From: Terfezia claveryi
Lineage: Eukaryota; Ascomycota; Pezizomycetes; Pezizales; Pezizaceae
Direction of reading: 5' to 3'
Length of the DNA stretch: 64,000 nucleotides
Assembly (NCBI GenBank): GCA_015179025.1
Contig: WHUX01000234.1
Location: 1 to 64,000, forward strand
Shown in pieces: positions 1 to 61,148 of the stretch; position 1 is the stretch's first letter; each line of letters starts with the position of its first letter. A model generated the notes under the pieces. That model saw only the letters and a program-made list of their open reading frames with translations, was not told the DNA's origin and did not search any database. The translations under genes were made by a program, and so were the position numbers.

Positions 1-460
1 ATATATATTACAATACTGAACTCTATATATATCGCAGTACTACAACTATGATTTCCCAATATGACTATTACTAGGTTAGGCATTAAGTATTACAGTACTC
101 ATACATAACAGTAGGCTAAGCAAGGCTAAGCACTATCATGCTATCCCTCTTATTATCTATTATTTCATAGTCATTAGAAAGTCTATATTGTCAACCTTAG
201 TAATCAGGCTTAGCCACTATTATTTTCCGGTATCTATACTTTACTTACTCATACTTTTTTCCTTTACTCTTTATCCAATATCTTATAAAATTTCTAAGGC
301 ATATTATTATAAATATTAGAGTGAGTATTAGAGTGAGTATTAGAGTAATTATTAGAGTGATTATTATAGTGAAGTATTGTACAAGTATTAGAGCAAGTAT
401 TGTAATAAGTATTAGAGTAAGTATTAGAGTGATATTATATTTAACTAACTTTGTATATTA
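1..460. other. AT-rich intergenic DNA with degenerate short repeats
   Basis: No gene is visible. The stretch is very AT-rich and between about 318 and 432 holds a degenerate array of a 12-bp unit of the form GTATTAGAGTGA. It ends at the 9-bp target duplication of the 13-kb element. Confidence 0.6.
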
Positions 461-469
461 ACATTATAC
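461..469. repeat. Left target-site duplication, ACATTATAC
   Basis: This 9-bp sequence is repeated exactly at 13534-13542, directly outside the mirrored TGYTCTCG/CGAGAACA termini. It defines the element boundaries. Confidence 0.85.
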
Positions 470-624
470 TGCTCTCGTGACCAGACTCTTAGTACCTACG
501 CATAATTATTTTAGTGCTACAGTTAAGAGTCTGGTAGTAACCTACTCCGAAATTGCCACGCTAGTTCCTCCGAGCTCAGAGGAACTAGCGTGGAAACTAT
601 GCAATACGCTAGTGGCTTCGGAGC
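470..624. repeat. Left terminal inverted repeat with two hairpins
   Basis: TGCTCTCG starts the element. The first palindrome has arms CCAGACTCTTA (481-491) and TAAGAGTCTGG (524-534). The second is bounded by CTCCGAA (545-551) and TTCGGAG (617-623). It contains a perfect 15-bp stem (556-570 pairing with 579-593, CCACGCTAGTTCCTC) around an 8-nt loop. The same two-hairpin design recurs in mirror order at the right end. Confidence 0.85.
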
Positions 625-796
625 AGAATATGTAATACAGTATTTGTTTTGGAACGTAAATATTTATTTTTGAACATCTCAACAAAAACATCCTGGAACA
701 CGGCGAAATCTAGACTGCTAATCAGAACCAATAACCGTCTTCAAGTGCATCGGGAGATCAGTGAATTAGGTTATTGCAGAAATATAGTTTGCTGTT

Positions 797-3700
797 ATGG
801 ATAGTGAATAGGATGCAATTGCATTGGATGCTGAGGAGGAAATATGGGAACCGAGAGTCTTCAAGATTTGTGAATTACTGAGAAGCAGTAACATGGACCT
901 CAAACTATTTGTTACCAGATGCCTTGGAGCAAAGTCAAAGCGCATGCGAGAGAAGCAAAGGTCCTTTATAGACAATAATGGTGTCGAGGAGGTGTTTGAG
1001 GGGATGGTATCGGTAATCAATTGTAGCAGCAAAAGGAAACAGAACTCGGCAACAGCAATCTCCGAAGTAAAGAGGCGTTTAGGTGGGGGTGTCTGGAGGC
1101 TCGTTCAGCAAATTTTGGACCTTGAGTTGGGGGCCTATTGTAAGCAACCCATTGATAAATGCCCGGTACAGGCGATAACGCCTGACATTGCAACCAATTT
1201 CAACTTTGAAGAGCTTGGTGGGAGGTTTCGTCAGAACTGTCCGCGCCTATATGAGCTCATCAATGGAGTATGCTCAGTCGGAAGCGACAGAGATACGATG
1301 CTAGACAATTCGAATTTGAGAAAAAGGAAGAAGAGTGGTGGTGGTGGGGGTGAAAGGGGTAGAAAGAGTAAAAATAAATTGTTGATAAGTACTGTGGTTA
1401 TGAGCATGATTGCATTTGGGAGATCCAGGATGTGCAACAGTTTACAGACCCCGATTGGATATTATCTGCAGGCTTGCGGGGTTCCTAAAAGGGTGATCGG
1501 TGTTTTAAATCGAGTGGGCCTGAGTGTTGGATATACCACTATATGCGATGCTATGAAAGCTATGGGAAGCGCGAATGGAGAACGGATTAAGAAGCGTATC
1601 ATTCAGGGACATGCGTTCGGGCTTATGTGGGATAATAATGCGATGTTTGAGAATAAAACAGGACAAAGTGTGAAAAATCAAAGGGTGCTGACTCAGTATA
1701 CCTGCGCTGCTATGTGGTTCCTACATATACCGAAGCCAGAAGCACCTGAGAAAATTCGTCCAGTGGTTAGAGTCGAGACAGAAGAAATCCCAGAGAAGAG
1801 ATTGAGATCGGTAGAAGGTTTGGACAATGGAGAAGAGGCAGATGGCGAGGCCACGATTGGAGCGGATCTTAGAGATAATAGTTGTTGAGAATTTGATGAG
1901 AAGATGAGGATTTATATGGATCTTCAGGCATATGAAGAAGGGGTTCCTGGCCTAGACGGACGGTTCTTATTTGCTAGTTGTCCAGACTATACGAAAATCG
2001 ATAAATATTGGTTGTTGTCAAAGGACTCATATGCAGAGCATATGCCCAATAGGTTAGTTGTCCATTTGAGCGACATATTGTGGAAGTATTTTCCCATAGT
2101 CATGCAGGAGTTGGCTGCAAGGGAACCTGGGCACACCCGACCATCGTTTGAATGGATTCATAGGATTCCATGTGTAAGAATGGATGTTAATGCCTTTGAT
2201 ACCTTGGAGAAGGATGAGACGTCCATTCAAGGCAGTGCGGAAGTGATTGATAAACTGTTGGAGCAAACAGGATTGAGTTCGATAAGGTTGGCTGGGAGAG
2301 TGGTTCTTCATGTGGGAGATTTGGGAACTATGTTGAAAGTGTCAGCATTGAAGCAGCTACGTGTGAGAGACTTTGAGCATAACAAGTTAAATTACCTGGC
2401 AAAACTGGATGGGATTTTCCATTTAGAAATGGCGGCAGAAGACTTATTGTTTCGGGGACATTGGGGAAGAGAAGATGGAATGGACCCCGGCTCTCTATGT
2501 CAGTTGAAGCATGTTTTGGCGGTTAAAGGAGCTACGGCAGGGATGCCCGAATACAATGCCTGTAAGAGATTCACTAATATCTGCGGAGAGAGACATGCGT
2601 TAGCAGCGGTAGCGTCAGAATTGAAGGTATAAGAGACCTGGAATTTCGAGAATAGTATGCTAATATTGTTAAGGCAAGTTGTTTGTAGGAACTCGAGAGA
2701 GAGTTGAAAAAAGTAGATAATTACGTGGATTTGTGCAGGAAAGTCGTTCAAAGATTCTTAGTTCCTAGAACAGTGACAATTATGAGAGAGAAAGCAGAGA
2801 ATGCGGGTATTAAAGAGTGGGGATCAATGTTGAAGGAGAAGCATTTGAAGAAGGATAGACACGGAGATGAGCTTGATAGGAATGCATTCATAAAGAGGGT
2901 GGCTTATAGGGAAAGGGATTTAGCATATGAGAACTTTCTGTTGTTTTTGCAACATTATTTCGTGATAAGAGACTTGCATTATAATGTCAGGTAAGTTGTC
3001 CGATTGTAAGACATTTTTATCGTTTTGTTGGAGCAAATATCTATATGAAGTTGAGACATACTGATTCTCGTAGTGCTGGTGACTCGGGAGCTTTGCTAAA
3101 AAATATAGAACCTTTATGCGTGTGGTTCAGTGGGGCTGGGAAACATCATTATGCTAAGGCAACTGCAAATCTGTTAATCGATAAAGAGGTAGTTTGGATA
3201 GATAGATTCAGGTATATTTGGGATAACAATATCCTGGTCAATTTGAGTGGCCGAGAAATGAAATTCATGGGTATTGATAAGGTAAATGAGTTATTGGTGC
3301 GAAAAGTCAAAGATCAACATAATCCGAACAGGAACTGGCAAAGTAAGGTTTTTTTTTTGAAATCAGTATCCAGGAATGCATTCTTATTCCGGTCGGTGCA
3401 GGAGGCAGTACATCAGTCCGCTAGTAAGTACATCAGTCCGCTCGCTAGTAAGTATACTAGAAATTCGTAGGTACCAAGAAGCTTACGTATATGCAGGTGT
3501 TTTGGATATCTCCTATAAACATAGAACCGTGGACGATAAAGAGGATTGTAAAGTTGTTTTCAGGACGCTTTTGCAGCATGATGTATGTAATTTCCGAAAG
3601 GGACGCTGGAAAGCAGGTTCGGTTTATAATCCTGTTGAGATAAAGCCAGCCTTGGACCTATTTACACTTGGTGAACGGATAATCACACGAGGTTCCTTCC

Positions 3701-3978
3701 TTGATGACATAATGAAAGAAAGAGTGGGAGGAATAAGAGGAGATAATGATGCAAGCTCGGAATGTAGTGAAGATCGACTATTCCGTGAGGAGGAGGAGCG
3801 TTATCTGCGAGAACGACCTGGGGCCCCCGGTGATGAGTATGAGAATATAGATTTGGAAATGGAGCAGAATATGGATATGGCCCCGGAGGAAGAAAGAATA
3901 GGTTTGGTTGATATTAGAGAGGATTCGGAAGATGAAGAGGATAGTGATGTTAATTATGGTGAAGTGGAGTATGGATGA
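797..3978 (+). pseudogene. DUF6589-family protein, candidate transposase (nonsense codons)
   Basis: The reading frame opens at ATG 797 but has TAG at 809 and TGA at 1886; both flanking frames are continuous. An intron with GTATAA donor and TGCTAAT branch site fits 2627-2688. Two later junctions (near 2991-3044 and 3342-3470) are less clear. Diagnostic stretches are a GVPKRVIGVLNRVGLSVGYTT-type block (about codon 220), LMWDNNAMFE, VLHVGDLGT, HLEMA, a GDSGALL block, and the RNWQSK segment near the C-terminus, which ends in an acidic tail. This order matches the fungal DUF6589 family, whose biochemical role I do not know. Conserved Asp in WDNN and GD plus a downstream Glu would suit an RNase H-like DDE enzyme, which is inference. 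The gene is convergent with the helicase gene, with a hairpin between them. Confidence 0.75.
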
Positions 3979-4182
3979 GGAATTGAAGGTCAAGAGAGAT
4001 GGTGAGAAGGACAGAGAGAGGAGGAGGGATTTGAGATAAATAGTCTCGGGATGTCTGATGATGAAGATGCATTGAGCATGTCAGGGGATAGTGATTTGGG
4101 CAATGAGGGTTGATGAGATAAATGTATGGGATAAGGTATCACACAGAGTCGCTGAAAGGGCATAAGATGATGTCAGAGGTTT

Positions 4183-4228
4183 GTAATTTTGAGAGTCGGA
4201 TGGATTTTGGTTTGACTCTCGGAATTAC
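4183..4228. repeat. 46-nt hairpin between convergent genes (reverse copy)
   Basis: The arms GTAATTTTGAGAGTC and GACTCTCGGAATTAC flank a loop containing GGATGGATTTTGG. It is the reverse-oriented relative of the three hairpins at 7705-7906. It lies between the 3' ends of the DUF6589 gene and the helicase gene, which would suit a role in RNA 3' ends (inference). Confidence 0.8.
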
Positions 4229-4255
4229 TTGGTTGATTGTTTGTGTTGTACTCTC

Positions 4256-6803
4256 CTATCATTGGTTTTGTTCTTGGGTGCCTGCATTTCGTGGTCCTCG
4301 TCTCTTTTCTTTGTCTGAGCGAGTTTTTCTCTTCTTCATCAGCTGGGGATTGTGTGAATCTACTCGTTCTTGTGAGGCTTGCGCGGTTGATATTATGGGC
4401 ACATTAATGTGAATTGGATTCCCTAATATCTCTGTTAGTGGAAGGTGTTGTTCCGACTGCGTTTGGGTGTCCTCTAAAGTGTTTTGTATCATATACTGCT
4501 GATCGTTGACAATTGTTCGGATTCCGTCAAAGACCTGGTCGAAGAACTCTTGTTTCATTTTCCCATTATAGGTAGCAGGCCTTTTCGATAAAGTTTGATG
4601 AACTTGGTCTGGTTGTTTTATCTTAGGTGCTCGTGCCACGATCGCTTCGGTTTCTTTTTGAGTTAAGAGAGCACTCGCAGATTATGGTACAAATCTGTTA
4701 TTCCCTTTCTGATCCTTCCAATGCTAATTTCGCAGAGTGATTATATGTTCATACAGTGCCTCCTTAGTGCGCTCCGGTAGCTTCGTAGGCCGAGTTCCCT
4801 TTGTTTTGACAACAGTTCCCGATGTGTAAACTGTCATCGGAATCAAACATTTGATCTCAGAAGGGATATCATCTTGCATGCAATGATTACAGTATGGATG
4901 GGTATGAGGATGTGTTGAGGTATCATTGAAATAGTTAAGAATGATATGCCGTCTATACTTGGCAGTATTAATAAAGGAGAGTATAGCTCTGCAGATTAAT
5001 GGTAGCTTCAGTGCTTGTGTCTTTTGGGAGGTACCTGGTTGTACAGATTTGGTAAAACCAGGTTTGTCTTGCGATGCTTCAACAGCACCAGAACCTGAGT
5101 GGGTCGCTTCACTAAATAACTCACCTAGTGCATCTGCTTTGCGTTTCTGTGACCGTGGAGCCGTTGAAGAAGTAAGGCCCATATCAAAGCGGATAATATC
5201 CTGAGATACTTGTTCATAAAGGGGATCATCTCATGCTCTTTTATAAATCTGAGCATTACTGTCATGGTTTCTGATAATCTCGGCGTAGGGAGTATAGAAA
5301 AGGATACCAATGCCCTGGATTTCTGGGTCCCTTACAGCACGACCGAAGCATTGATAGAGTGTAGTTAGGTTGTATCTTGGGGACAATCTCCACTGTATAA
5401 TTCGTTCTATATCTCGCACATCAATACCCATACCACATGCCTCTGTACAGACAAGTATACGACATATACCCTCTATGAATCTCTGCAAATTATATTCTCT
5501 TTTCTCGCTTGTTATAGCAGTGCATACTCTAATATAGCCTCTGGATATTCTTCGAACATATGCTTAGGTATAAGCTTGGATAGCTCTGTTGCAATATTGC
5601 ACGCATCTCGGAGGCCATCAACGAATACCATGGTATTCAGAATATTGATTTGGTGAGTGGAGTAATAGATATCAACCTACGAGGTATCAAAAACTTGATT
5701 TCCTCAAACTTATGTAATGGAGAATGAATGGGATATGCAAACAGACAGAGGTTCTCTCTGTTAATTGATCATTGTATTAGATCACATTGTTTAGGCATGC
5801 GCAGGGCTGTATGTATGAATCCCTGGACATGTAGAGAGATAGTTGCTGATAACCCCATGAAAGTGACTTTGGGAAAGAAAATTCGTAATAACCCAACACC
5901 TGTATAATCTGCTCTGAAGTTCCTCCATTGATGGCAGAGATGCACCTCATCTATTACGAAACCCAACAGTCGAGAAGAGAATACCTTTGACTTGGCGAAT
6001 CTCAGAAATATTTCATTGTTCCTGGTCAATACTTCTAGACAAACGAAGACGACTTGGTAATAGCCGGAAATGATTTTGCTGACTATCGTAGGATCAACTT
6101 GAATGGATTTAGCGTTCAAAGAGATAGCCTTGAGTCCATACCTCCGTGCCGTTGAGACCTGTATATCCTCGTTAACCCGAGAACGGAAGAGTTTCGGCTT
6201 CAACTCACATGAGAATCTTGTAGAGCAATCAGAGGTGTTAAAACTATAATTGTCCGCTCTAGTGCACACAAAGCTGCTAATATAAAGCAGAATGTCTTCC
6301 CGTCCCCAGTTCTAGATATAACAATCTGATCTTTGCCCTCTAGGAATCGGGCTGCTGCCTCGACTTGCCAGGATATAGCTCGAAGTGTAACCCCACATGC
6401 CATGCTAGTTTGCGCTGCCACTTGCCCAATCGTAGCCTTGATGCCACTGAAAATGGAGAGGTCCGAAGGCAACTCATCCGACCGTTTGAAAAGCTCCCCG
6501 GAAAACGATTTTAAAGTGAGGCTGTTATTACTTACCTCGCCCTCGGATGCCATAGGTACTCCGAAGCCTATGTCTAGGGTTGATGTTGAGTTGTACGCTG
6601 TTTGATACAGGTATTGAAGCGGACTGCAAAATGTCAGTTGAGTACAACAATCCAAAATGCCAAGCCCGCCATACCCATGCCCCAAGATCTATCACGAAAC
6701 AGGTGGAGTGAATCAATTCTCTAGAAACAGATCCACTTGAGCCCAATTGCTCTCGGAGAATCTTCATAAATATTTCAATATTAAGGCCAAATTTCTGGCC
6801 CAA
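4256..6803 (-). pseudogene. RecQ-like DNA helicase (several nonsense codons)
   Basis: Superfamily 2 helicase motifs appear in order on the minus strand. They are Walker A RTGDGKT (about 6300), TPLIAL, DEVH box VIDEVHLCHQW (about 5950), MGLSAT (motif III), a TMVFVDGLRDA motif IV, ACGMGID (motif V) and QCFGRAVRD (motif VI, about 5340). A KYRRHIILNYF...YCNHC segment (about 4880-4960) resembles the RecQ zinc-binding domain, with Tyr where the first Cys is expected. A lysine-rich tail follows. Introns fit at about 6449-6539 (GTAAGT...TTTCAG), 6169-6216 (GTGAGT...ATACAG) and 5478-5522 (GTATGC...TTGCAG). In-frame stops at 5231 and 4724 and a TAA near 4684 fall where CGA, CAG and CAA would restore the frame. 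A helicase inside a DNA transposon could unwind ends or replication intermediates (inference). Confidence 0.8.
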
Positions 6804-6807
6804 GAAA

Positions 6808-7616
6808 CCCCTCCTCCGAGGTCAAATCACCACTCCCAAGCTATAATATAGGATAGTTGTGATCCTATGCATCACCGCTAATAACCCCCCCGCGAACAGA
6901 GCAACCCATTATGTACGTACATCTCGAGTCCGGAATAGCTTTCTAGCTTTCTAGTTTTATAGATCACTATGAATAGGAAAAGAAAAGCCTCCTCCGAGGT
7001 CAAATCACCACTCCTAAGCTATAATATAGTAGATAGTTGTGATCCTATGCATCACCGCTAATAAACCCCCTGCGAACAGAGCAACCCATCATGTACGTAC
7101 ATCTCGAGTCCGGAATAGCTTTCTATCTTTCTAGTTTTATAGATCACTATGAATAGGAAAAGAAAAGCCTCCTCCGAGGTCAAATCACCACTCCCAAGCT
7201 ATAATATAGTGGATAGTTGTGATCCTATACATCACCGCTAATAAACCCCCCGCGAACAGAGCAACCCATCATGTATGTACATCTCGAGTCCGGAATAGCT
7301 TTCTAGCTTTCTAGTTTTATAGATCACTATGAATAGGAAAAGAAAAGCCTCCTCCGAGGTCAAATCACCACTCCCAAGCTATAATATAGTAGCTAGTTGT
7401 GATCCTATGCATCACCGCTAATAAACCCCCCGCGAACAGAGCAACCCATCATGTACATACATCTCGAGTCCGGAATAGCTTTCTAGCTTTCTAGTTTTAT
7501 AGATCACTATGAATAGGAAAAGAAAAGCCTCCTCCGAGGTCAAATCACTACTCCCAAGCTATAATATAGTGGATAGTTGTGATCCTATGCATCACCGCAT
7601 CTAGAGTCCGGAATGT
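6808..7616. repeat. Tandem repeat, about 180 bp, 4.5 copies
   Basis: Copies starting CCTCCTCCGAGGTCAAATCA occur at 6810, 6988, 7168, 7348 and 7528, with steps of 178-180 bp and few differences. The last copy is cut after about 90 bp. The array lies directly upstream of the helicase gene and downstream of the glycine-rich gene. It could be a promoter array or protein-binding iterons; the sequence alone does not decide. Confidence 0.9.
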
Positions 7617-7704
7617 TAATATAAAAACGCTGAACTTTTCCTCATTCCACTCTCACCTTTCCATCTAACACTTTGTATAGATTCTCCCATGTCTAGCCCA
7701 GAAT

Positions 7705-7906
7705 GTAATATTGAGAGTCGAACCAAAATCCGTCCGACTCTCAATATTACAAGCTACTACCCACAAAGGCACCTAGTGTAATGTAATATTGAGAGTCAAA
7801 CCAAAATCCGTCCGAATCTCAATATTACAAGCTACTACCCACAAAGGTACCGAGTGTAATGTAATATTGAGAGTCGAACCAAAATCCGTCCGACTCTCAA
7901 TATTAC
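7705..7906. repeat. Three 46-nt hairpins at exact 78-bp spacing
   Basis: The hairpins are at 7705-7750, 7783-7828 and 7861-7906. Each has 15-bp arms GTAATATTGAGAGTC / GACTCTCAATATTAC around a loop close to GAACCAAAATCCGTCC; the middle copy has arm mismatches. They lie just downstream of the 3' end of the minus-strand glycine-rich gene. Confidence 0.9.
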
Positions 7907-8066
7907 AAGCTACTACCTACAAAGACACAATGAGGGTTATAACGACAAACTAAAATCAATTCTGTTCCCAAAAATTCAAACAATAACTAAACATTCAAAA
8001 AACTAAATTGTCTCCATTCCCTCCACGCTTTACATCCTCCTTAACACTTCCAAGAAAAATCCCCCT

Positions 8067-9437
8067 TTATTCCACATCTCCGTCTTCATCGTTGGTAGTT
8101 TCCTCCTTAACTGGAACTGCTTTCATTCTCAATCCACTGATGAGCATTCTCAAACGGCGTGCAATTCGGTCTCCAGGTACCCACTCATCTTCATTCTGAC
8201 TGCCAACTGTACCAAGCATCTCTTTAATCTTCTCAATAAGCTCGATGTCCTCCTTTGTTTCTTCATCCAAGGCCCTCATTTCTTCAGGTAGTGCTACTTC
8301 CAGTAATCTCAGGATTTCTGGATCACAATCTTCATCTTCTGCATTCTCAAATCGTACTTTTTGATATGCTAGGAGTTTCATCTCTGGTGTCCTCTCTCTT
8401 TTTCTCTTTGTTAACTCCCCTCCCTGTCGGGACCTTACTCCCGCCCTCTTACTACTTCTCTTGGTTCCTGTGGCTACTCCTCCACCCTGTGCTACCTCTT
8501 GACTTCCTCCTACCCCTTGACTTCCTCCAGCTGCTACCCCTTGATTTCCTCCAGCTGCTACCCCTTGACTTCCTCCACTTGGTGCCACTGGACTTCCTCC
8601 ACTTGGTGCCGCCCCCCTTGGTCCTGGTCCTCCTTGTATTCCAGCTTGTCTTGCTTCAGCATTCTGGACTAGTTGACTCGTATTCGTTACTCCTTGTGCC
8701 TCGCCAATACTTGTCATCTTTACCACGTATCCTGCATGGTATTTCTTTTGTTCGGCAGGCAACACAGGTGGTAGTTCTCTATCCTGTAGCACCTATCTGA
8801 TGTCTTCGACCATGAGCCAATCGTCCTTCTGTGTTCTTGGCGTGCTTTTTCTATCCTCAATCTCTATTACAAAGCGTGGTAGAATGTCTCTCACTAGGTC
8901 CATTCCATGATCGAATGATAGTTGTTCCGCTGCAAGAGAGCATTGTCGAGCGAACTCGACAGAAGGCCAAGGCGGGTGAAGCTTGTCTAGCAATGCTATC
9001 CAGTTCGGACCCCAAAACTTTTCTGTTAGCATATTGTAGTTCTGACACCATTTCACTGATGCCTTGTACACCTGGCCAAACTTGTTTAGTTCATCTATCC
9101 TAAGTTCATCTCGAGCATCTTCTCTTGTAACACCCCATGCTTGTAATTCCGCCTCCGTTGCAGCTTCTATTAGTGTCGACTATGCTGCAGCCAACGCTCC
9201 AACTATTTCCCCCGCTTGTCGTGTTAATCTAGCAATTCCCTTGAGAAAGTTCCATTGTTCCTTTCCCCCAATAATTGACTTTACCGCACCCTCAAATTGC
9301 GTGTTCACCGTGATCTCACTCCTCATCATTTCCGTGAACTTTACTTGTAGTTCCCCTGCTGCGATAGTTATCGGGCAAGATATAGCTGTAGATCCCGACA
9401 TTGTTTCTGTGATTTCCTGAATGCAAATGAAGTGCAA
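8067..9437 (-). pseudogene. Glycine/glutamine-repeat protein of the 13-kb element
   Basis: One minus-strand frame of about 456 codons runs from 9437 (or the ATG at 9401) to 8067. It is broken only by two TAG codons (9180 and 8793), both explained by CAG-to-TAG change. The N-terminal half is helical without recognised motifs. The middle holds short Gly-rich repeats (GGSQGVAAGGNQGVAAGG), followed by a basic KRSSKRAG...KRKRE patch that could be a nuclear localisation signal, and an acidic C-terminus. I do not recognise the family. Its place inside the element and its lack of introns suggest a transposon accessory protein. Confidence 0.6.
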
Positions 9438-9832
9438 GCGTAGTAGTGTGAGGGATGATTATCGAAATATGAGATTCGCTTGCTGTATGATCAGTTCTAA
9501 AGATCGAAAGGGTAACTCCTCACCCCCTCCCTACTTATATTAACATATTTCAGGCCAAAACCCGGGCCAAAATACAAACAAAAATCTAGACAAAAAACTT
9601 CAAATGCAGTTGGCCTGATGCACAAGGCCATAATGAAAAATCTCCGCACTAGAACGACAAACAAAACACAAACACCCTCCTAGTGTATCCCGTTGCTAGC
9701 GCGTGCATACCTAGCCCGTTTTCGCAGGTATTAGCGTTCTTATAAGCATAAGCGTGCACATTCTCAACGATGATCTAAACACAAATTCCGTCCCCTGTGT
9801 GCATAACCCTGCGCATCTTTGGTAAACAAAAA

Positions 9833-12800
9833 ATGGCGAGTCCCTCAGTAAAGCGGAAGGTCTCACAGCCTGCAGTTAGGCCACAGACTAGAAGCAAGCG
9901 TTCCAAAACCGACGACACTCTACCAGCACCAGTGCCAGTGCATTTGGGGCTTATTGATCCAGACGGCTATATCAATGATGATAGCATATTGGAAGCCTTC
10001 ATGCCCGCTGAAATGACGAAATGGTTACCGAAGCCTCTCGTAGACATGCTGGTATCCTCGGTCGTATGTATGCCCTTGCTGTCAGTTGTGTATTGTTTTT
10101 TTTTGGTGGGTGGGATGATCTTGGATTTCACTGACCACATACATTTTAGAGTCCCGAAGAATGGAGAGCGAAAGCAGGATGGTTGATCGCTATGGTGTGG
10201 TATAAAGTCCACAACTTTAGTAATTCATTCTTGGAAGAGATGCTCCAGACTATTAGACCAGCAAGAGATGGTGTAATAGATGTGACCTCGGAGAAGCATA
10301 CTTTATTGGATTACCAGAAACAATTACAAAATGGATTCTTCGAGGTTTTGTTGAAGTTAGCACGCTATTGGACCAATGGGACTATTGGAAAGGAATATAC
10401 TCGCACCCTGCGCAGTGAGAGGGAAAGAAAGTTACGTTTATCTAAACTCAAGGTTACGGATGTGGAAAGTTGGTTGGAATTGGGACATAAGGTAGTTCAG
10501 GATTCTCTTGATTGGGGTATTAAGCTAACTAGTTTTGTATTACAGGATTATTATGCGATCTGGTACCCGGTCACCTTCGTGACAGATGCTCTACTATGGC
10601 TCACACCCGGAAATTTTGGAAGATCCACTGATAGCGCTGCGAGAGGCTCTGACCAAGAATTGCGGCTTTCTACACTTGCAATGCTGGTCAGGGTCATCAC
10701 AGTGCTAAGTACAGGCAAGGTCAACCAACAAGCTATCAGTAATGCCGCCCGAATTAGAATCTTTGACGCAACAGCGTCGCGGGATATTGGTGAGTGGCCT
10801 TCGTTGGTACCAAAGGCAGAGTGGCCACAGTCTGTAACTGCTTGGGAGTCAAGTGCTACGACCTATACAGCACATCAAAATTGTGAAGAGTATCACGCGA
10901 TGATCAAGAAAATTGAAGAAAAAGTGGAGAAGGAAAGAAAGGTTAGATCTTCTAGTGGGAATAAACTCGAAGATGATGGTGGGGACATCCAGCAAGTCCG
11001 AGGGAATGCAGATAAAGAAGAAGATGGAAGTGGAAAGGAAAGTGAAGTTGTTGAGGGGAATCCAGACAAACCCGAGAAATAAAATATAGAGACTATTCAG
11101 GTAGCGGATAGTGATGGAAGTGATGAGGGTCAAAAGGAATCGGTGAAGACTGTTGATCTTACTAGAGAGGATGGTGAAAACGTGGTGGCTCTCGAGGGGC
11201 AACAGGATAAAAATTTCTTCGAATTCATGAAAGGGGAAGAGCAACAGTTTCTCGAAGGAGGCCTTGAACACATTCCAGTCATGCCTATGGACCTAGGAAA
11301 TGAGTTTAGTGTAGAGACAGCAGGAGCTTTTGGAGAAGAGAAAATGACCAAATCGGGCCTAGTTACATTAGCTCAATTCACGGAGATCGAAAGGGAAAAC
11401 AAAGAAGATTGGGTATTGGACAATCGGATCGCTGAACTGTTGAGGCCTAGTTTGAGTTTGGCGGATATGGCAAAGTAAGTCTTTTGTTTCTCCTAATCAG
11501 GAGTTTGATGGAGAGTCATGCTGATGCATCTATTTGGTAGTTATGTGTCAGGTGAGGCAATTAGGATCGCATTGATGGGACCTATGGGGTGTGCACGGTG
11601 GGCAGCGCTAGCTTGTCAGGAGATTGTAAACCGCAATGATGAACTATGCTTGCTAGTCGACAAAAAAATTGAAAGATAGAAGCATATGGTCACGGAGTTG
11701 CAACTCTCGATGGACGAGGCCATTCAATCTGTGGAAAGGCTGAATTTGCTGAGGCAAGAGTTGAATAATAAGATTGAAGAGGCTCACAAAGAGCAGAAGA
11801 AATTTGCAGATACAAAAGAGTGGGCTGCGCAACAAAAGAATGCCAGGACAAGTGCTGCTGGAACCCTTGCCGGAGGTGGCGGAAGATTGGCTCGCTTGGG
11901 TAGCGCTACCATTGGATTGACTGTGAATGAGACTCCTAGGCGCCAAAGGGACTTTCACCGCAAGGAAAGTGTAGAAGTTAGTTCTAATTTCTCATTCAAG
12001 CGCGAAATTAAGCCTGAGAAGACTGTAATCAAGCGAGAGAAAACTGTAGATGCAGATGCGTTGATCAAGGCTCAGGAGGAAGGACGAAGGGATGTAAGGG
12101 ACAGAAGGGGCAGCCGTGGCTTTTTGAAAACTAGGAATTGGAGTCCCGATAAAGAAAGCATGAGTAGCGGAGATGAAGAAGAGGACTATGTGAATGACTA
12201 CGAATATGGAAGAAGCCGCAGAGATGGTTACGCTCAAGGGCCAAAGCGTGGAAGGGGAGAACCAAAGCGTGGAAGGGAAGAATATAGAGATGGCCGACAA
12301 GGAAGTGGTTACTATAGAAGTGAACGCCGGGAAGGTCGCGCTGGATACGATGATGATAATTCCGACTGGTATTCACCTGAAAGCGGTGATTACCATAACC
12401 TTGACAGAAGATCCCATTATTCGAGTAGCAGAAGGGATGGCGATCGACATCATACTGACCATCTAGTCAGATATCGTCATTGGAGTGATTATGGTTCCCC
12501 TAGACATGGAGACCAGCGTAAAGGAGATCATGATCGGGGAAGGTGTCGGGAAAACGAAGAGGGAAGGGATAGAGCCAAGGGAAAGGAAGATAGGCTCAGA
12601 GCAAGAAGTGGAAGCCTTATGCCTCAGAGGGAATGGTACGGGGGGAGGAACAAAGAACTACGTCATGATCGTGATAGATCTGGGTCTAATTCTCAAATTG
12701 TAGCCTCGGAAAATCCGAGAACAGCGAATATACTTACAATTCCAGGTGGGGACAAGGGTGAGGTAAATTCAACCACAAGTCCTGTAATGGAGGATAAGGG

Positions 12801-12987
12801 GGAAGTTGATCAGGGGGAAGTTGGGGCCAGTACAGTTACAATTCCGGGTGGGGATAAGGAGCAGGTAAATTCAACAAAAAGTCCGGTGATGGAGGATAAG
12901 GGGGTTGGGTGGGCTTGTTGTGGTGGACGAAAGATGCTATCAATGAATGAAGAGGTGGATAATGATGACGATCTGATGCCGGAGTAA
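9833..12987 (+). pseudogene. Large arginine-rich protein of the 13-kb element
   Basis: Translation starts at ATG 9833. Intron 1 fits 10064-10149 (GTATGT...ATTTTAG) and joins two frames exactly. Intron 2 fits 11475-11540 (GTAAGT...TTGGTAG) and also restores frame. Two nonsense codons remain, TAA at 11080 and TAG at 11677, each one C-to-T step from Gln. The restored length is about 1,000 codons. The N-terminal half is helical with no motif I recognise. The C-terminal third (12100-12700) is rich in RS, RD, RE and RG repeats like RNA- or DNA-binding proteins, and ends with two repeated IPGGDK...SPVMEDKG blocks. Its role is unknown; nucleic-acid binding is inferred from composition. Confidence 0.65.
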
Positions 12988-13211
12988 CGACACAAGATTA
13001 ATTTCTTATTTCTTGGCTCATTAGTAGTATGTTATTAGCTTTTTAGAGGAAAGGTCCATTAGTAGATGCCACTTTTGATTGATATTGAGCTTGCTACGCT
13101 ATAGAAACATGCACCAATGACTGGATTCTGAGGTTCGATGTGAATAGCTCATGGAGAGTGCCAAAAGATCTGAAATGTAGAGATGATACGTAGCAGAGTA
13201 TATTTCAAATC

Positions 13212-13241
13212 GAGAGTCAAACCAAATCCTGTCCGACTCTC
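13212..13241. repeat. Short hairpin downstream of the arginine-rich gene
   Basis: GAGAGTC (13212-13218) and GACTCTC (13235-13241) enclose a loop AAACCAAATCCTGTCC. This is a decayed copy of the 7705-7906 hairpins, placed about 225 bp after the stop codon of the gene ending at 12987. Confidence 0.75.
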
Positions 13242-13390
13242 AAAACTAGAGATAATATACAATGCACTAAATGAACGAAATCCCAAACAAATGCATCCGC
13301 AATCAAATGTTTTGGTAGACATTTATTCTGCTGTTGTCATTATGACAATTGTGTATACTTATAAAATATACAGCTCAAAATAACACTAGT

Positions 13391-13533
13391 AGCTCCGAAA
13401 ACAGGCTATGCACGTGCTAGCATCTCTAAGTTTAAAACGTTCTGAGATGCTAGCGTGTGCAGTTTCGGAGCAGTTTAGTACCAGACTCTTGCAGATAAAA
13501 GTTATCACTGCCAAGAGTCTGGGACCGAGAACA
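13391..13533. repeat. Right terminal inverted repeat with two hairpins
   Basis: CTCCGAAA (13393-13400) and TTTCGGAG (13463-13470) bound an inner stem (13411-13426 with 13444-13459, two mismatches). A second hairpin follows, CCAGACTCTTG (13481-13491) with CAAGAGTCTGG (13512-13522), and then the end CGAGAACA at 13533. It mirrors the left end. Confidence 0.85.
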
Positions 13534-13542
13534 ACATTATAC
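13534..13542. repeat. Right target-site duplication, ACATTATAC
   Basis: Exact copy of 461-469. Confidence 0.85.
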
Positions 13543-53010: not shown

Positions 53011-55256
53011 CCATACATCACGGGGTAGTGCATCATCACCGGGAAATGCATCAATTTACGCACTCAACTTCTAGCAGCCCGAGACCTAGTTACACGATAC
53101 ACAGGTGATCCAACGCTTCTTCCAACAACAATAGGAGATACATGACGAGGCCTGACAGGTGTTTGGGGCAATGAGGGTGCTTGCCGCCTCATGGGTAGGG
53201 GGGTAGCCACCATAATAACCGACTCAATTGAGGTGTCCTCATCGAATGGAGCCTCCAGATCAGACTCCCAATCTTCCATCTCCAATCCGAACTCATCTAG
53301 TGATTCCTCAGTTGTACTAGATCCCTCCGACTCTTCAAAGTGGACCGATACCTTGCGTGGTTGCATTGCTTTGCCTTTATTCTTCCGAGACAGTGGCTGA
53401 GACATGCGTTGTGCACGGGCCTCCCGCGCAGCTTCTTTCTTCTTCTCAGCACGATCTCTTTGCAAATAGAGCTGATGGAGGACAGTACCATCAAGTACCG
53501 TACCCTCCTCAGTTGATAGTTCCTTCCTATTAACTGGAGCTGCTAATTTTTGTGCTTGTTGCCACTTTCTGAGGGTATCTCGTTCAAGTTGTAAGTCTTG
53601 ATCAGCATTGAGAGCGAACCTCTCTAGGGAGTTAATCAACTCTGCCAATTCAACTCGATTAATTTCCTGATCCTTTTGTTGAAGTAATAGCTTAGCTTGC
53701 CTGGCTTTGCGTAGCATTGCAGCAGAATTTCGAGGTGTAGGAGGTACTGGTGGTGGGGATACCGGTTTCGATTCCTTCTCCGGGTCTCGATAGGTTGGTA
53801 ATTTGGTTAAAACCTTTCGTGGATTAAATGGAATTAGTCCACTACCCCTCCATGCACCTAGAATATTTTCTTTCGTATAAGCCTGACCTCAAGCCTTTAC
53901 CAACAGTGGTAGAAAATTTCCCTTGTTGATCGCTACATTACCAAAACGAGTTAGCCGATCAACCTCCTTCCCATATGCCTTCTGTAGTGGCGAAAATATA
54001 CCAACATCCAACGGTTGAAGGAGATGTGTTGTATGAGAAGGAAGACAATATGCAACAATTCGATAATCTATACAATATTCAATGAAATCAATATGAATAT
54101 GAATCTCACAACCATCAAGAATAAGAACTCGGTATTGTTGTGGTGATACTAAGCGCCCTTTAGTAATATTATCGAAATGCTTTAACCATGCAACACTCAA
54201 AAAGCTATTATTCCATCCAGTCCTGCTATAAGTAAACTTCCAATCCTTGGAGATATTAATTAATGAATCCAAGTGCTGATACCATCCTATATAATATGCA
54301 ACACCTTTATATATAATAAGGGGAGAAAGAACAATACCATCTCCAGAAATAGTCTCCACTACAGTAATCAACTCCCTTGTACCATCAGTAGCCATCTTTC
54401 CAGTCATACCACGTTCACGGCGTTGACATATAACCTTAGCCCTATCAGATATCCCCTATCTAAATCCCTTTTCATCCATGTTGTAGGTATTGCTCTCGGT
54501 TATCGAATATTTCTTCCGTACTCGCTCAACCTTACTAAAATGACGCTGGATAACTCCTGGATCACTCTGTTTGATACGCCGCTTGTCAAAGTTACTGCTG
54601 AGCTTAGATACTAGATTCGGATGTCGATCTAGAAAGCGGGTTAAATAATTTTTGCCGAGTGTCTTATCAAAATATGTCTCAATAGTTTTCTCTGCTAAAC
54701 CAAGCTCTGGATGCTTCAATAGTACAATTGCTTCCTTGACATGGTTGACCCGAGGTGGGAATCCAAACTCCTCAAGTCGCACTATCCACCTGACAATTGA
54801 TCTCTCTTCTGCCGGCGTCAATAGCTGTTGATGCGTATGTGCTAATTTCCGTGGTTTTGCTCCTTTTAGACGCCTCCGTACAGTAGAATAATGAACTCCA
54901 TATGCTTCCGCTGCCTTTCGCATTGATTTAAACCGTCCTTGTTGTACTCCGGCACATGCGTTCTTAATGGCTTTCTCTCGATCGGCCTCCTCTTTAGCCA
55001 CCTGAAGTCGGCGTTGCTTTAGCTTGCCCATTGCGATAACTAGCACTTTATTAGCACCAAACTTAATTATATATAGCCAGAATTCGCATACCGTCAGTTC
55101 TATTGCGTTCTCTGAGTTGTATTTGACCAAAGATCGATCGCACCGGTGGGGATTTGGTTGATATTTACCTCGCATGTATGCTTACAATTCCGAGATAGGC
55201 ATAGCGTGGGGGCTGATGCACATCTCGGTGATGATGCACTACCCCGTGATGGATGG
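53011..55256 (-). mobile_element. Pogo/Fot1-like transposon, copy 1 (inactive)
   Basis: Terminal inverted repeats CCATACATCACGGGGTAGTG and (other end, reversed) CCATCCATCACGGGGTAGTG lie between TA dinucleotides. It is 2,246 bp long, the same as copy 2, and lies in opposite orientation to it within the same copia element. Confidence 0.9.
53064..55031 (-). pseudogene. Pogo/Fot1-like transposase, two nonsense codons
   Basis: Same protein as the intact copy at 59128. ATG is at 55031. The frame has TAG near 54456 (CAG in copy 2) and TGA near 53887 (CGA in copy 2). Both are C-to-T changes on the coding strand. The rest of the frame is open, including MDEKGF, LDGCEIHI and QPLDVGIF. Confidence 0.9.
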
Positions 55257-55257
55257 T

Positions 55258-56197
55258 AGCGCTTGCTGCACAAGCACCATAAGCGGCAGTACCTATTCCT
55301 GTCCATCGGGACTTCAGGTCTAGTATTAAGCTAGAAAAGCTAGCAATTCTTGAAGGTGCAAAGAACTATGATCTTTGGTCACAACAGATGCTGATGATCT
55401 TTGACGCTCTAGAAGCTACACAAGTAGTTGTCAACAGCTTTATTCCTCCGCTCATAGCAACAGCTGCTGAAATAACACATCATAAGCATATACAGACAGA
55501 ATCTCTTCTGCTCCTTATTCAAGTTGTTTCGCCGAAAATCATGCTGCAGATTGGTAGGCATAGGTCTGCAAATAAGATCTGGCATTATCTCCACAAAACA
55601 TACTACAAAGATACCCTACTGTCCTTTGTACATGAGATTCATGCTTTTAATTTGCTTGCTACCACACTTGATACCTCACAATCAATTTCTCAGTTCATTG
55701 ACACTTTTGAGATTCGATGGATGCAGTTGCACCAATTTACCTCGAATGCACGTCCTGGCAGCTTCAAGGCTGTATATAGGACTTTGCTAGAACTTGAAGA
55801 TGCTAAGTGCAAATACCTCCTTACTTCCTTAGTCACTCACTATCCCAATGTGGTAGTTAACCTAACTACTAAGGAAAATCTCTCGTATGATGATTTGAAG
55901 GAGAGGCTACTAGGTCTAGTAATCAATAACTAACTCTCTAGCTACAATGGCAGAAACCAGACCAATACGGCGCTACTAGCCAATAGTCGTCCGAATAAGG
56001 CTAGAAGCAAGAAATTTGTGCAATTCCAGCAATAAGCCACAAAATCTCAATCCCAACAAGCTTCACAAGCTTCGCAAGCCTCTGCAGATCCAGGCCCTCA
56101 GTCTTGTACCTACTGCAAACGACATGGACAGCGATTCAAAGGTCATGTCTGGCAACATTGCCGGAAGCTAAAACATGATCAAGCTTATAAGAAATAA
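55258..56197 (+). pseudogene. Copia gag with zinc knuckle
   Basis: The frame 55388-55933 encodes a copia gag domain (LEGAKNYDLWSQQMLMIFDA, then WHYLHKTYYKD, SISQFIDTFEIRW). After a TAA comes a polar linker and a zinc-knuckle-like CTYCKRHGQ...HVWQHCRKL (about 56107-56172), then TAA/TAG stops. It would form the virus-like particle shell in an active element. Confidence 0.85.
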
Positions 56198-56339
56198 ATA
56201 GCACAGGCCTAAGCTACTATTGCTCAAGTTGTGCAAGCCTCTGTTTCTAAAGCTCAAGTTGCACAAGCCTCCATTTCTCAAGCACTTGTCTCCCAACAAC
56301 TCGATCCCTCCGGTTTTGTCTCTGAATCTGTTCAGACCA

Positions 56340-57900
56340 ACCCACAGGTTAGTACAATATACACCTGGAAACTAGACACATATGCAACAGCTTACATAAC
56401 ATCTGATATAGGTCATTTCTACCACATCTACCCGCATCACGGAGTTGTGAAGGTTGGGAGTAACAACCTCCTTCCTGTCGAGGGGAAAGGCACTGTAATA
56501 ATACATGCCTCTATACCCAACAACACAATCAACCGTCTGTTCTTAAAGGATGTGTTATATGTGCCTACTCTAAGTCATAGTCTGTTTGCCTGAGATATCA
56601 TTAAGTTTAAGGTTGTTATGGTCACTAGGGATAATGTTATTCATATGTTCAATAAAAGTGATCTTCAGACTCCGATCTTAGTTGCAGACATTAGGGACAA
56701 GCTTCCCTGGTTGCGAGAAACTGCGAATTCGCAATCTCATATAAGCCTTGTGAGCAATCCTAATGCTCATACCGGCCTTATGAGCTCTTCGCTTACTTCG
56801 AAACCTCATATAAGCTCTATGAGCTCTTCGCTTACTTCGTAACCTCATATAAGCCCTATAAGCTTTAATACTCATACCGGCCTTATGAACTCTTCGCTTA
56901 CTTCACAACCTCATATAAGCTCTGTAAGCAGCTCTAATGCTCATATCAGTCTTATGAGCTCTTTGCTTACTTCGCAACCTCATATAAGCCCTATGAGCTC
57001 TAATGCTCATACCGACCTTATGAGCTCTTCTTCATATATTCATTAGCATAATGCATTTGAGCATGCAGCCAATATATACCCAGCTGCATATGCTGATGGC
57101 GAGCTCTTACCCAAGGCACCTGCCAACTTCGTATGCAATGCATGTATTATGTCAAAATCAACAAATAATACCCCATTTGCTCTTTCTCATGCTCACTCTA
57201 CTAGGGCATTTGAACTCATACATAGCGATCTAAGTGGCAAGCAGCCTATCGCATCTTATGGTAACTCTCTCTATTACATCACGTTTATAGACGATTTTAC
57301 CAGCATGGCATGGATGCACTATCTAATAGCCAAATCTGATGCAAACCAAGTAATTATTGATTTTATCACCTTTATCCAAAGGCAGTACAATACCACTATT
57401 CTGGCTGTTTTAACTAATAACGGTGGAGAATATATCAAGGTTAATATTTACTTCAAACAACAAGGCATATACCATAAAAGGACACCACTTTATTTTCATA
57501 AATTGAATAGTATTGCGGAACGCTTTAACTATACAATACAGACAATGGTCAGAGGCATGCTCACCAATATCTCAAATGAGAGGTTGTGGGCGGAAGCATG
57601 CTCAACCACTGTATATTTGAAGAACTGCCTTCCGCATTCACATCTCCAAGAGATAACACCCTATGAAGCCCTGTATAAGCCAAAACTATCAATTAGTTAT
57701 TTACATCCTTTTAGACATCATTGCTTTGCTCACATCTACGAGGAAAATAGACCAAGTGGCAGCAAGCTTCTCCCACGGGCAGAAAGTGCAATATTTGTTG
57801 GCTATATGGACAGTACCTCTATATATAGGATACAGCTTAATAATAAGCACATTAAGACAATCAGAGCGGCTCTTTGCTCCTTCCCTCAAGAAAGCACGAG
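56340..57900 (+). pseudogene. Copia protease and integrase remnant
   Basis: The protease motif, usually DSGAT, reads LDTYATAYIT (56373) and VLYVPTLSHSLFA ends the domain, so the active-site Ser-Gly is lost. Integrase follows: HSDLSG, FIDDFTSMAW, LTNNGGEY and SIAERFNYTI. The second catalytic Asp of the usual TDNGGEY motif is Asn here. Repeated CTCATATAAGC...TATGAGCTCT units lie between the two domains (56735-57035). Confidence 0.85.
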
Positions 57901-58165
57901 CTCACAAGCAAGCTTACCAGCAAGCTTACCTGCGAGCAATCAAGCAAGCTTACCAGTGAGCAATTAAGGAAGCTTACCAGCGAGCTTACCAGTAAGCAAT
58001 CAAGCAAGCTTACCAGCAAGCTTACCAGCAAGCTTACCAGTGAGCAATCAAGCAAACTTACCAGCGAGCATACCAGCAAGCAATTAAGCAAGCTTACCAG
58101 TGAGCAATCAAGCAAGCTTACCAGCAATCTTACCAGCAAACAATCAAGCAAGCTTACCAAGCTTG
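57895..58165. repeat. AGCAAGCTTACC tandem repeat in the copia linker
   Basis: A 12-bp AGCAAGCTTACC unit alternates with AGTGAGCAATCA. It expands the hydrophilic linker between integrase and RT and is largely open in both strands. Confidence 0.85.
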
Positions 58166-58902
58166 AGGTATAACCTAAGACCACGGAAAAAGGCTAAAAT
58201 TGCTGTTATTGCTGAAAACTTGCCAATCGATACTGAAGCTCGAACAAGCGACCCTACCCAGCTACTAAAGGCAATCCCACATGAGCTAGCCTTGCTTGCC
58301 GCCAATATTACTAATGAACCCAGAACTTACTTACAAGCTTCTATAGGGCCTGATGCCCATAAATGGTATGCGGCAATACAAGTAGAGCTGCTAGCTTTAA
58401 CCAACCAAAATGTCTGGGATATTGTGCCTATACTTTCTAACTGCAATATTGTTGGTTCTAAATGGGTATACAAAATACAGCGAGATGCTGCTAGTAATAT
58501 TAGCCGGTATAAGGCAAGGTTAGTAGTACAAGGGTACTCTCAGCAACCGGGAACGGATTTTGATAAGGTTTTCACTCCAGTTATCAGATATGACTCACTG
58601 CACTTGCTCATTGCCCTATCAATATGCTCAAACTGGACAAAACCAGACCAGCTTGATATCAAGGGCGCATTCCTATATAGCTATCTTAATAAAGAAGTCT
58701 ATATACATCTTCCTCCTGGTTTCTTCGAAGATCAGCTGGACTCATGCCCTCTATTAAAACGATCTATATATGGACTAAAACAAAGTCCAAGGCAGTAGTA
58801 TGCTAGGCTGACTGGCTTCCTCATACCGCTGGGCTATAAAGCAACCAACTTTGACACTTGCATCTTAGTACATACCAGTCATAATATTATTATTGCAATC
58901 TA
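58166..58902 (+). pseudogene. Copia reverse transcriptase, N-terminal part
   Basis: Contains SKWVYKIQRDA, YKARLVVQGYSQQPG, FTPVIRYDSLHLLIA, DIKGAFLYSYLNKEVYIHLP and SIYGLKQSPRQ, the classic copia RT blocks. A TAG follows at the Trp normally found after RQ. The frame ends IIIAI followed by the TA where pogo copy 2 is inserted. Confidence 0.9.
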
Positions 58903-61148
58903 CCATCCATCACGGGGTAGTGCATCATCACCGGGATGTGCATCAACCCCCACGCTATGCCTATCTCGGAAATGTAAGCATGCATGCGGGGTAAATATCA
59001 ACCAAATCCCTACCGGTGCGATTGATCTTTGGTCAAATACAACTAGGAGAATACAATAGAAGTGACAGTATGCGAATTCTGGCTATATATAATTAAGTTT
59101 GGTGCTAATAAAGTGCTAGTTATCACAATGGGCAAGCTAAAGCAACGCCGACTTCAGGTGGCTAAAGAGGAGGCCGATCGAGAGAAAGCCATTAAGAACG
59201 CATGCGCCGGAGTACAACAAGGAGGGTTTAAATCAATACGAAAGGCAGCGGAAGCATATGGAGTTCATTATTCTACTGTACGGAGGCGTCTAAAAGGAGC
59301 AAAATCACGGAAATTAGCACATACGCATCAACAGCTATTGACGCCGGCAGAAGAGAGATCAATTGTCAGGTGGATAGTGCGACTTGAGGAGTTTGGATTC
59401 CCACCTCGGGTCAACCATGTCAAGGAAGCAATTGTACTATTGAAGTATCCAGAGCTTGGTTTAGCGGAGAAAGCTATTGAGACATATTTTGATAAGGCAC
59501 TCGGCAAAAATTATTTAACCCGCTTTCTAGATCGACATCCGAATCTAGTATCCAAGCTCAGCAGTAACTTTGACAAGCGGCGTATCAAACAGAGTGATCC
59601 AGGAGTTATCCAGCGTCATTTTAGTAAGGTTGAGCGAGTACGGAAGAAATATTCGATAACCGAGAGCAATACCTACAACATGGATGAAAAGGGATTTCGA
59701 CAGGGGATATCTGATAGAGCTAAGGTTATATGTCAACGCCGTGAACATGGTATGACTGGAAAGATGGCTACTGATGGTACAAGAGAGTTAATTACTATAG
59801 TGGAGACTATTTCTGGAGATGGTATCATTCTTTCTCCCCTTATTATTTATAAGGGTGTTGCACATTATATGGGATGGTATCAGCACTTAGATTCATTAAT
59901 TAATATCTGCAAGGATTGGAAGTTTACTTATAGCAGGACTGGATGGAATAATAGCTTTTTGAGCATTGCATGGTTGAAGCATTTCGATAATATTACTAAG
60001 GGGCGCTTAGTATCACCACAACAATACCGATTTCTTATTCTTGATGGTTGTGAGATTCATATTCATATTGATTTCATTGAATATTGTATAGATCATCGAA
60101 TTGTTGCATATTATCTTCCTTCTCATACAACACATCTCCTTCAACCATTGGATGTTGGTATATTTTCGCCACTACAGAAGGCATATGGGAAGGAGGTTGA
60201 TCGTCTAACTCGTTTTGGTAATGTAGCGATCAACAAGGGAAATTTTCTACCACTGTTGGTAAAGGCTCGAGGTCAGGCTTATATAAAGGAAAATATTCTA
60301 GGTGCATGGAGGGGTAGTGGACTAATTCCATTTAATCCACGAAAGGTTTTAACCAAATTACCAACCTATCGAGATCCGGAGAAGGAATCGAAACCGGCAT
60401 CCCCACCACCAGTACCTCCTACACCTCGAAATTCTGCTGCAATGCTACGCAAAGCTAGGCAAGCCAAGTTATTACTTCAACAAAAGGATCAGGAAATTAA
60501 TCAAGTTGAATTGGCAGAGTTGATTAACTCCCTAGAGAGGTTCGCTCTCAATGCTGATCAAGACTTACAACTCGAACGAGATACCCTCAGAAAGTGGCAA
60601 CAAGCACAAAAATTAGCAGCCCCAGTTAATAGGAAGGAACTATCAACTGAGGAGGGTACGGTACTTGATGGCACTGTACTCCATCAGCTCTATTTGCAAA
60701 GAGATCGTGCTGAGAAGAAGAAAGAAGCTGCACGGGAGGCCCGTGCACAACGCATGTCTCAGCCACTGTCTCGGAAGAATAAAGGCAAAGCAACGCAACC
60801 ACACAAGGTATCGGTCCACTTTGAAGTGTCGGAGGGATCTAGTACAACTGAGGAATCACTAGATGAGTTCGGATTGGAGATGGAAGATTGGGAGTCTGAT
60901 CTGGAGGCTCCATTCGATAAGGACACCTCAATTGAGTCGGTTATTATGGTGGCTACCCCCCTACCCATGAGGCAGCAAGCACCCTCATTGCCCCAAACTC
61001 CTGTCAAGCCTCATCATGTATCTCCTATTGTTGTTGGAAGAAGCGTTGGATCACCTGTGTATCGTGTAACTAGGTCTCGGGCTGCTAGAAGTTGAGTGCG
61101 TAAATTGATGCATTTCCCGGTGATGATGCACTACCCCGTGATGTATGG
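58903..61148 (+). mobile_element. Pogo/Fot1-like transposon, copy 2 (intact gene)
   Basis: 2,246 bp between TA dinucleotides (58901-58902 and 61149-61150). The ends are CCATCCATCACGGGGTAGTG and, reversed, CCATACATCACGGGGTAGTG, with similarity over about 43 bp. It splits the Tyr codon of the copia YVDD motif. Confidence 0.95.
59128..61095 (+). CDS. Pogo/Fot1-like DDD transposase, intact
   Basis: I chose the ATG at 59128 (MGKLKQRRLQVAKEE), giving 655 residues; the frame extends upstream only from a non-ATG codon. Order: psq-type helix-turn-helix (FKSIRKAAEAYGVHYSTVRR, residues about 35-60), CENP-B/Tc5-type HTH (ERSIVRWIVRLEEFGFPPR), then the DDE_1 domain. Its catalytic Asp residues are NMDEKGF, LILDGCEIHIH and LLQPLDVGIF (about residues 190, 310 and 350). 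A long coiled, basic C-terminal region ends in an acidic segment. It would bind the terminal repeats and cut and paste the element at TA. It has no nonsense codons, unlike copy 1, so it may be functional. Confidence 0.95.
   Translation: MGKLKQRRLQVAKEEADREKAIKNACAGVQQGGFKSIRKAAEAYGVHYSTVRRRLKGAKSRKLAHTHQQLLTPAEERSIVRWIVRLEEFGFPPRVNHVKEAIVLLKYPELGLAEKAIETYFDKALGKNYLTRFLDRHPNLVSKLSSNFDKRRIKQSDPGVIQRHFSKVERVRKKYSITESNTYNMDEKGFRQGISDRAKVICQRREHGMTGKMATDGTRELITIVETISGDGIILSPLIIYKGVAHYMGWYQHLDSLINICKDWKFTYSRTGWNNSFLSIAWLKHFDNITKGRLVSPQQYRFLILDGCEIHIHIDFIEYCIDHRIVAYYLPSHTTHLLQPLDVGIFSPLQKAYGKEVDRLTRFGNVAINKGNFLPLLVKARGQAYIKENILGAWRGSGLIPFNPRKVLTKLPTYRDPEKESKPASPPPVPPTPRNSAAMLRKARQAKLLLQQKDQEINQVELAELINSLERFALNADQDLQLERDTLRKWQQAQKLAAPVNRKELSTEEGTVLDGTVLHQLYLQRDRAEKKKEAAREARAQRMSQPLSRKNKGKATQPHKVSVHFEVSEGSSTTEESLDEFGLEMEDWESDLEAPFDKDTSIESVIMVATPLPMRQQAPSLPQTPVKPHHVSPIVVGRSVGSPVYRVTRSRAARS

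Follow-up and report, generated by a model that had tools for sequence, protein, structure and literature searches.

DNA transposons that encode a helicase and generate target duplications of 9 or 10 bp, known from fungi and other hosts, were reportedly named AcademH by Kojima in 2020. For AcademH, an encoded helicase and duplication of 9 or 10 bp of the target are described (PMC10045372), as is its presence at low copy number in Basidiomycota, Ascomycota, and Mucoromycota (PMC10799480). AcademX is described with 3 or 4 bp duplications and an encoded nuclease (PMC10045372), and KolobokH as DNA transposons of fungi in which a RecQ helicase lies downstream of the transposase domain (PMC9587614). 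Repeated RecQ-like genes at fungal chromosome ends are also on record, as subtelomeric RecQ helicase genes (PMC4522978). Here, we analyzed a window of 64,000 nucleotides from the desert truffle Terfezia claveryi (Pezizales; assembly GCA_015179025.1, contig WHUX01000234.1, positions 1–64,000) that contains a transposon of 13,064 bp at positions 470–13,533. The transposon encodes a DUF6589 protein, a RecQ helicase, and the proteins of 2 further genes, designated gene 3 and gene 4. It is likely a large AcademH-like DNA transposon with DUF6589 as its transposase.

The element is a single mobile unit flanked on both sides by a perfect 9-bp duplication, ACATTATAC. Its ends form an imperfect inverted repeat, in which the terminal 25 bases of the left and right ends match in inverted orientation at 19 of 25 positions. 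Both ends fold back, and each forms 2 hairpins, one terminal and one subterminal. All 4 folds were more stable than those of shuffled sequence, with DNA-fold z-scores (200 shuffles per fold) of −3.4 and −7.0 at the left and −5.8 and −7.4 at the right. These features, together with the sister copies described below, confirm the view of the first-pass annotation that the stretch is one 13,064-bp mobile unit with a 9-bp repeat, mirrored ends, and hairpins. A Pfam scan of 10 reading-frame pieces of the window placed DUF6589 above the cut-off in 2 pieces, and the helicase family DEAD above it in 1 piece and slightly under it in another. With the PDB-sequence matches of the helicase, this upholds the annotated gene content of DUF6589, RecQ, and 2 unfamiliar genes, the scanned pieces of genes 3 and 4 all falling below the Pfam cut-offs. 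An Rfam scan of the window gave no matches.

Further copies occur throughout the genome (below, C with a number denotes a genome contig and L with a number an extracted locus). A query with the left end (window positions 400–700, which take in the leftmost 231 bp of the element) matched at least about 40 genomic places (70 rows from the best 40 of 137 candidates), and most of the matches listed start no more than a few bases from position 470; the right-end query matched about as many places (at least 46 rows from the best 40 of 70 candidates). Both ends could be paired for 26 copies of the window family, 4 long (13.1–14.0 kb) and 22 short (1.2–5.2 kb), a count that leaves out places with a single end and a long copy on C62. 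The long copies are the window element and those on C6, C42, and C154, which are 96–97%, 93–94%, and 97% identical to the window element in DNA over the full length; each of the 4 contains all 4 gene regions. The C62 copy, the fifth long one, has kept its left half; its DUF6589 gene contains a long terminal repeat (LTR) retrotransposon, and the copy terminates at the site of a short copy. The 22 short copies, all inspected, are gene-less and share with the long copies only their termini (approximately 235 and 330 bases) and some repeat sequence from the interior, as expected for elements mobilised in trans. The visible short copies (among L023–L044) contain tandem repeats of approximately 20, 40, and 83 bp, the number of which varies despite near-identical ends.

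Flanking duplications of 9 bp were compared in 27 copies (the 26 of the window family and 1 of a second family, described below); 16 were perfect, 4 matched at 8 of 9 positions, and 7 did not match. Two of the perfect cases, on C597 and C379, have identical flanks and represent one insertion present twice. When the left flank of each copy was paired with the right flanks of the others, 3 of 702 pairings matched at 8 of 9 positions or better, compared with 20 of the 27 own-flank pairings; therefore, the duplication does not arise by chance. Two of the 3 matches in this control come from C597 and C379, and the third from a pair on C201. This pair consists of 2 short copies in opposite orientation (C201:394889–397834 and C201:351346–355155; L039 and L040) without duplications of their own. 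GTAGCCTCG is found crosswise, in the right flank of one and the left flank of the other, and the remaining 2 flanks differ, as if the copies had recombined with each other. The first-pass annotation had named other loci with the same ends, 9-bp duplications, and 4 genes as a supporting result; other copies with such ends and duplications are present, and the 3 long sisters have the same 4 gene regions.

The site of the window element is a dispersed repeat: a query of its joined flanks returned at least 46 rows, 36 of which cross the junction (best 40 of 459 candidates). At C222 and C645, the junctions of which were read letter by letter, the target has no insert, and ATATTATAC stands in place of the ACATTATAC of the window. 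The C154 element lies in a tandem repeat, an uninterrupted unit of which agrees with the joined site in 57 of 61 bases, and the second-family element on C31 lies in a repeat that is found uninterrupted in the sequence flanking the C154 element on its left (compared by eye). These empty sites are paralogous repeats in the same genome. The first-pass annotation had named an empty site in a related strain as support; the insert-free targets seen here (C222 and C645) are repeats within the one genome.

DUF6589 (PF20231) is listed in Pfam as a family of unknown function, and a text search of the literature for DUF6589 and PF20231 found no description of it. The bounded element, its target duplications, the empty sites, and the gene-less derivatives suggest that DUF6589 is the transposase that moves the element. 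This assignment is possibly new; if true, the DUF6589 proteins annotated in fungi would be encoded by transposons and not by the host. The genome contains 22 DUF6589 loci (43 rows). Homologues were found in Terfezia, including a T. boudieri protein with 97% identity over 72% of the query, in Kalaharituber (46%), and, more distantly, in Mycena (23%); among viral contigs, 12 pattern matches were obtained and none was confirmed. DUF6589 is predicted to be an RNase H-type DDE enzyme. In an alignment of 8 sequences from truffles to Mycena, D261 and D448 (numbered as in P0004) are invariant in all 8, and E635 is invariant in the 5 rows with a letter at this column; the window copy has all 3 candidate catalytic motifs.

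The helicase is of the RecQ type. The C154 copy matched 36 PDB sequences (E ≤ 0.01), of which 33 are named RecQ, RecQ1, RecQ5, BLM, or WRN and 3 only "ATP-dependent DNA helicase", and RecQ_Zn_bind scored above the cut-off in the same copy. Helicase-like loci in the genome number 16 (grouped from 22 rows), 5 in the window family and 11 outside it. Eight of these 11 are located within 12 kb of DUF6589, and 7 of them are convergent with it; the eighth, at C154:34085, is not convergent and lies outside the C154 element. The other 3 lie on contigs without DUF6589; 1 of them, on C788, is possibly the host RecQ and falls in a frame of 1,403 codons in which the best RecQ_Zn_bind match is located as well. 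Random placement would give at least 7 of 11 with a probability of approximately 3e-13, a figure that ignores the clustering and common descent of the copies. Some DUF6589 loci have no detected helicase nearby. The tail-to-tail pairing of DUF6589 and RecQ in diverged elements offers a way to test why certain DNA transposons come with a helicase.

The second family is represented by C31:24866–37963, an element of 13,098 bp with the ends TGTTTTCGTACC and GGTACGAGAACA and a duplication matching at 8 of 9 positions; this boundary pair was chosen from 2 scan candidates by its likeness to the ends of the window element. Translated comparison with the window revealed RecQ, DUF6589 (39–70% alike in the blocks that align), and gene 4, the last in reversed orientation relative to the window, and detected no gene 3 counterpart. 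C31-type ends occur repeatedly in the genome (40 and 41 rows). Such ends also enclose DUF6589, RecQ, and gene 4 on C778 (183530 and 209207) and C792 (131372 and 168033), in longer, only partly read stretches of approximately 26 and 37 kb; in an element on C268, the 9 kb scanned contained no candidate ends. The set common to the families thus appears to be DUF6589, RecQ, and gene 4, with gene 3 apparently added in the window family.

Gene 4, the third gene common to the 2 diverged families, is possibly new. Its 11 rows in the genome correspond to the 4 long copies, C792, C778, and C31 (31–35% identity), C218 (31%), and C98 (64%); a protein search with 7,994 candidates scored found it only in Terfezia (4 proteins), and a comparison with PDB sequences gave no matches. 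Gene 3 was probably taken up from a multicopy gene family: 5 of its 59 genomic rows lie in the 4 long copies and the rest on 36 other contigs, 2 of which also carry DUF6589, hundreds of kilobases off. One relative on C82 (L061) is an intact open frame of 544 codons with no Pfam match, and no element-type ends were found within the 3.5 kb examined around it. Against PDB sequences, a gene 3 relative gave 2 matches (best E 0.27), which we took as chance. A hairpin of the form GAGAGTCG...CGACTCTC occurs 3′ of the element genes (window positions 7713–7742, 7869–7898, 13212–13241, and approximately 4185–4225) and 3′ of the gene 3 relative on C82 (L061, approximately 1820–1855), and a similar hairpin is found in the LTR retrotransposon inside the C62 copy; it is perhaps a shared 3′-end signal.

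The long copies are decayed, chiefly through C-to-T changes. The private differences that are C-to-T or G-to-A amount to 153 of 184 in the window copy, 536 of 563 in C42, 160 of 187 in C6, 85 of 116 in C154, and 101 of 134 in C62, and 64 of the 74 C-to-T changes in the window copy precede A or G. We take this excess to resemble repeat-induced point mutation. In the window copy, the DUF6589 frame is interrupted by premature stops at 809, 1886, and 2686 and the gene 4 frame by one at 11080; therefore, the window copy is probably not autonomous.

In the mechanism we propose, the DUF6589 transposase would recognise the inverted TGYTCTCG ends together with their hairpins, excise the element, and join it to the target with a 9-bp stagger, which would be filled by host repair to give the target duplication. 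RecQ would act on the same DNA, probably at the foldback ends or on an excision intermediate, which it would open or resolve, and may help in repair; gene 4 would serve as an accessory of the transposition machinery. The same element might instead move by a replicative route: RecQ would peel off or unwind one strand at a foldback end, and the donor copy would stay in place. The hairpin ends and the retention of the helicase beside the transposase in both families are in keeping with such a route, and the present findings do not separate it from cut-and-paste; we consider it rather doubtful, as paired inverted ends and a duplication of fixed length are usual for cut-and-paste elements. It is highly improbable, by our assessment, that the unit is a composite, that is, a small DUF6589–RecQ transposon invaded by another element that carried genes 3 and 4. 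The occurrence of gene 3 relatives apart from DUF6589, on 36 other contigs, and the reversed gene 4 of the second family could be read in this way. However, 3 sister insertions have the same 4 gene regions inside the same ends, gene 4 lies between matching ends also in C31, C778, and C792, and the gene 3 relative L061 lacks such ends in the stretch examined.

The assignment to AcademH itself has to be weighed against an unlikely alternative in which DUF6589 is a transposase unrelated to Academ. DUF6589 would then form its own superfamily, RecQ would have been acquired and would constitute with DUF6589 and gene 4 a conserved three-gene mobility module with foldback ends, and the likeness to AcademH, including the 9-bp duplication, would be convergent. 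The nuclease of AcademX is XPG, and none of the 4 XPG_I places in the genome is on a DUF6589-bearing contig; this and the function-less status of DUF6589 in Pfam and in the literature search are compatible with a separate superfamily. On the other side, a helicase, a 9-bp duplication, and a fungal host are the very combination reported for AcademH in the available parts of PMC10045372 and PMC10799480. Several points weigh against an AcademH-like element moved by a DDE transposase: (i) the homology of DUF6589 to the Academ transposase is putative; (ii) AcademH is reported as low-copy in the available part of PMC10799480, and more than 20 short copies are present here; (iii) a matching duplication is absent in 7 of the 27 copies; (iv) D413 and E414 of DUF6589 are as invariant (8 of 8 rows) as the candidate acids, and the catalytic triad is therefore a guess; (v) the predicted structure of a DUF6589 homologue is poor (mean predicted local distance difference test score of 43.9, from 8 aligned sequences) and the DUF6589 profile matched no PDB sequence at E ≤ 1, so that the DDE fold is a prediction; and (vi) alternative boundaries of the C31 element (24642/38620, in an AT-rich repeat) scored higher in the end scan. 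We retain AcademH-like as the name because the duplication length and the helicase agree with AcademH and the homology to its transposase is putative; membership of AcademH is probable.

The features of the element are collected in Table 1. Elsewhere in the window, the frames at 55283–61910 look like a Copia-type retrotransposon, a pogo/Fot1-like transposase frame (59047–61095) lies within this stretch, and a broken second copy of that frame lies at 53064–55181; all of these were judged by eye from the translations.

Table 1. Features of the transposon in the T. claveryi window (positions are those of the window).
Feature	Position	Strand	Basis
Target duplication, left copy, ACATTATAC	461..469	none	Letters and end-placing script
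Left terminal inverted repeat, TGCTCTCGTGACCAGACTCTTAGTA	470..494	+	19/25 against the right end
Left terminal hairpin	480..535	+	Fold z −3.4
Left subterminal hairpin, CTCCGAA stem with inner hairpin	545..623	+	Fold z −7.0
DUF6589, predicted transposase, several exons (outer limits approximate)	797..4113	+	Pfam
Candidate catalytic acids of DUF6589	WDNN 1628–1639; HVGDLGT 2309–2329; YENFLLF 2926–2946	+	Alignment
RecQ helicase, tail-to-tail with DUF6589 (limits approximate)	4259..6688	-	Pfam and PDB-sequence matches
RecQ motifs	RTGDGKTF 6290–6313; VIDEVHLC 5934–5957	-	Translation
Tandem array, unit of approximately 180 bp, copy number varying among sister copies	6802..7598	none	Shifted self-similar matches
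Array of approximately 78-bp repeats with GAGAGTCG...CGACTCTC hairpins	7702..7928	none	Sequence reading and self-similar matches
Gene 3, no known family	8067..9401	-	Reading frame; genome relatives
Gene 4, no known family, common to both transposon families	9833..12987	+	Reading frame; genome relatives
Hairpin GAGAGTCG...GACTCTC behind gene 4	13212..13241	-	Sequence reading
Right subterminal hairpin	13392..13471	+	Fold z −7.4
Right terminal hairpin	13478..13525	+	Fold z −5.8
Right terminal inverted repeat, end CGAGAACA	13509..13533	-	End comparison
Target duplication, right copy, ACATTATAC	13534..13542	none	Letters and end-placing script

Helitrons are recognised by an HUH Rep and a Pif1 helicase, Polintons by a protein-primed DNA polymerase and an integrase, and Starships by a tyrosine recombinase. 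The exclusion of all 3 by the first-pass annotation is consistent with the 10 window pieces, which yielded only DUF6589, DEAD, and a sub-cutoff Med28 in a scan that included no search aimed at these hallmark genes; the target duplication speaks against a Helitron. Like the subtelomeric RecQ genes of fungi, the RecQ of the element belongs to a set of repeated RecQ-like genes, but it lies inside a bounded unit. KolobokH shares with the element a RecQ helicase in a fungal DNA transposon. Its RecQ follows the transposase domain, whereas that of the element is a separate, convergent gene on the opposite strand, and Kolobok duplicates TTAA, whereas the 9-bp duplications of the element have no fixed word; KolobokH is thus ruled out by duplication length and gene content. 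AcademX, although a DNA transposon of the Academ superfamily, is ruled out by the 9-bp duplication and the absence of XPG_I from DUF6589 contigs. The closest likeness is to AcademH: the 9-bp duplication (16 of 27 copies perfect, 4 at 8 of 9 positions, 7 without) fits the 9 or 10 bp of AcademH, a RecQ-type helicase is present in both the window family and the second family as AcademH encodes a helicase, and the host is a fungus. The first-pass annotation had raised the idea of an undescribed class of large fungal DNA transposon, which is not supported, as a helicase and 9 or 10 bp duplications are already combined in AcademH (PMC10045372). The kind of element is therefore already known, and the Terfezia element extends it to desert truffles.

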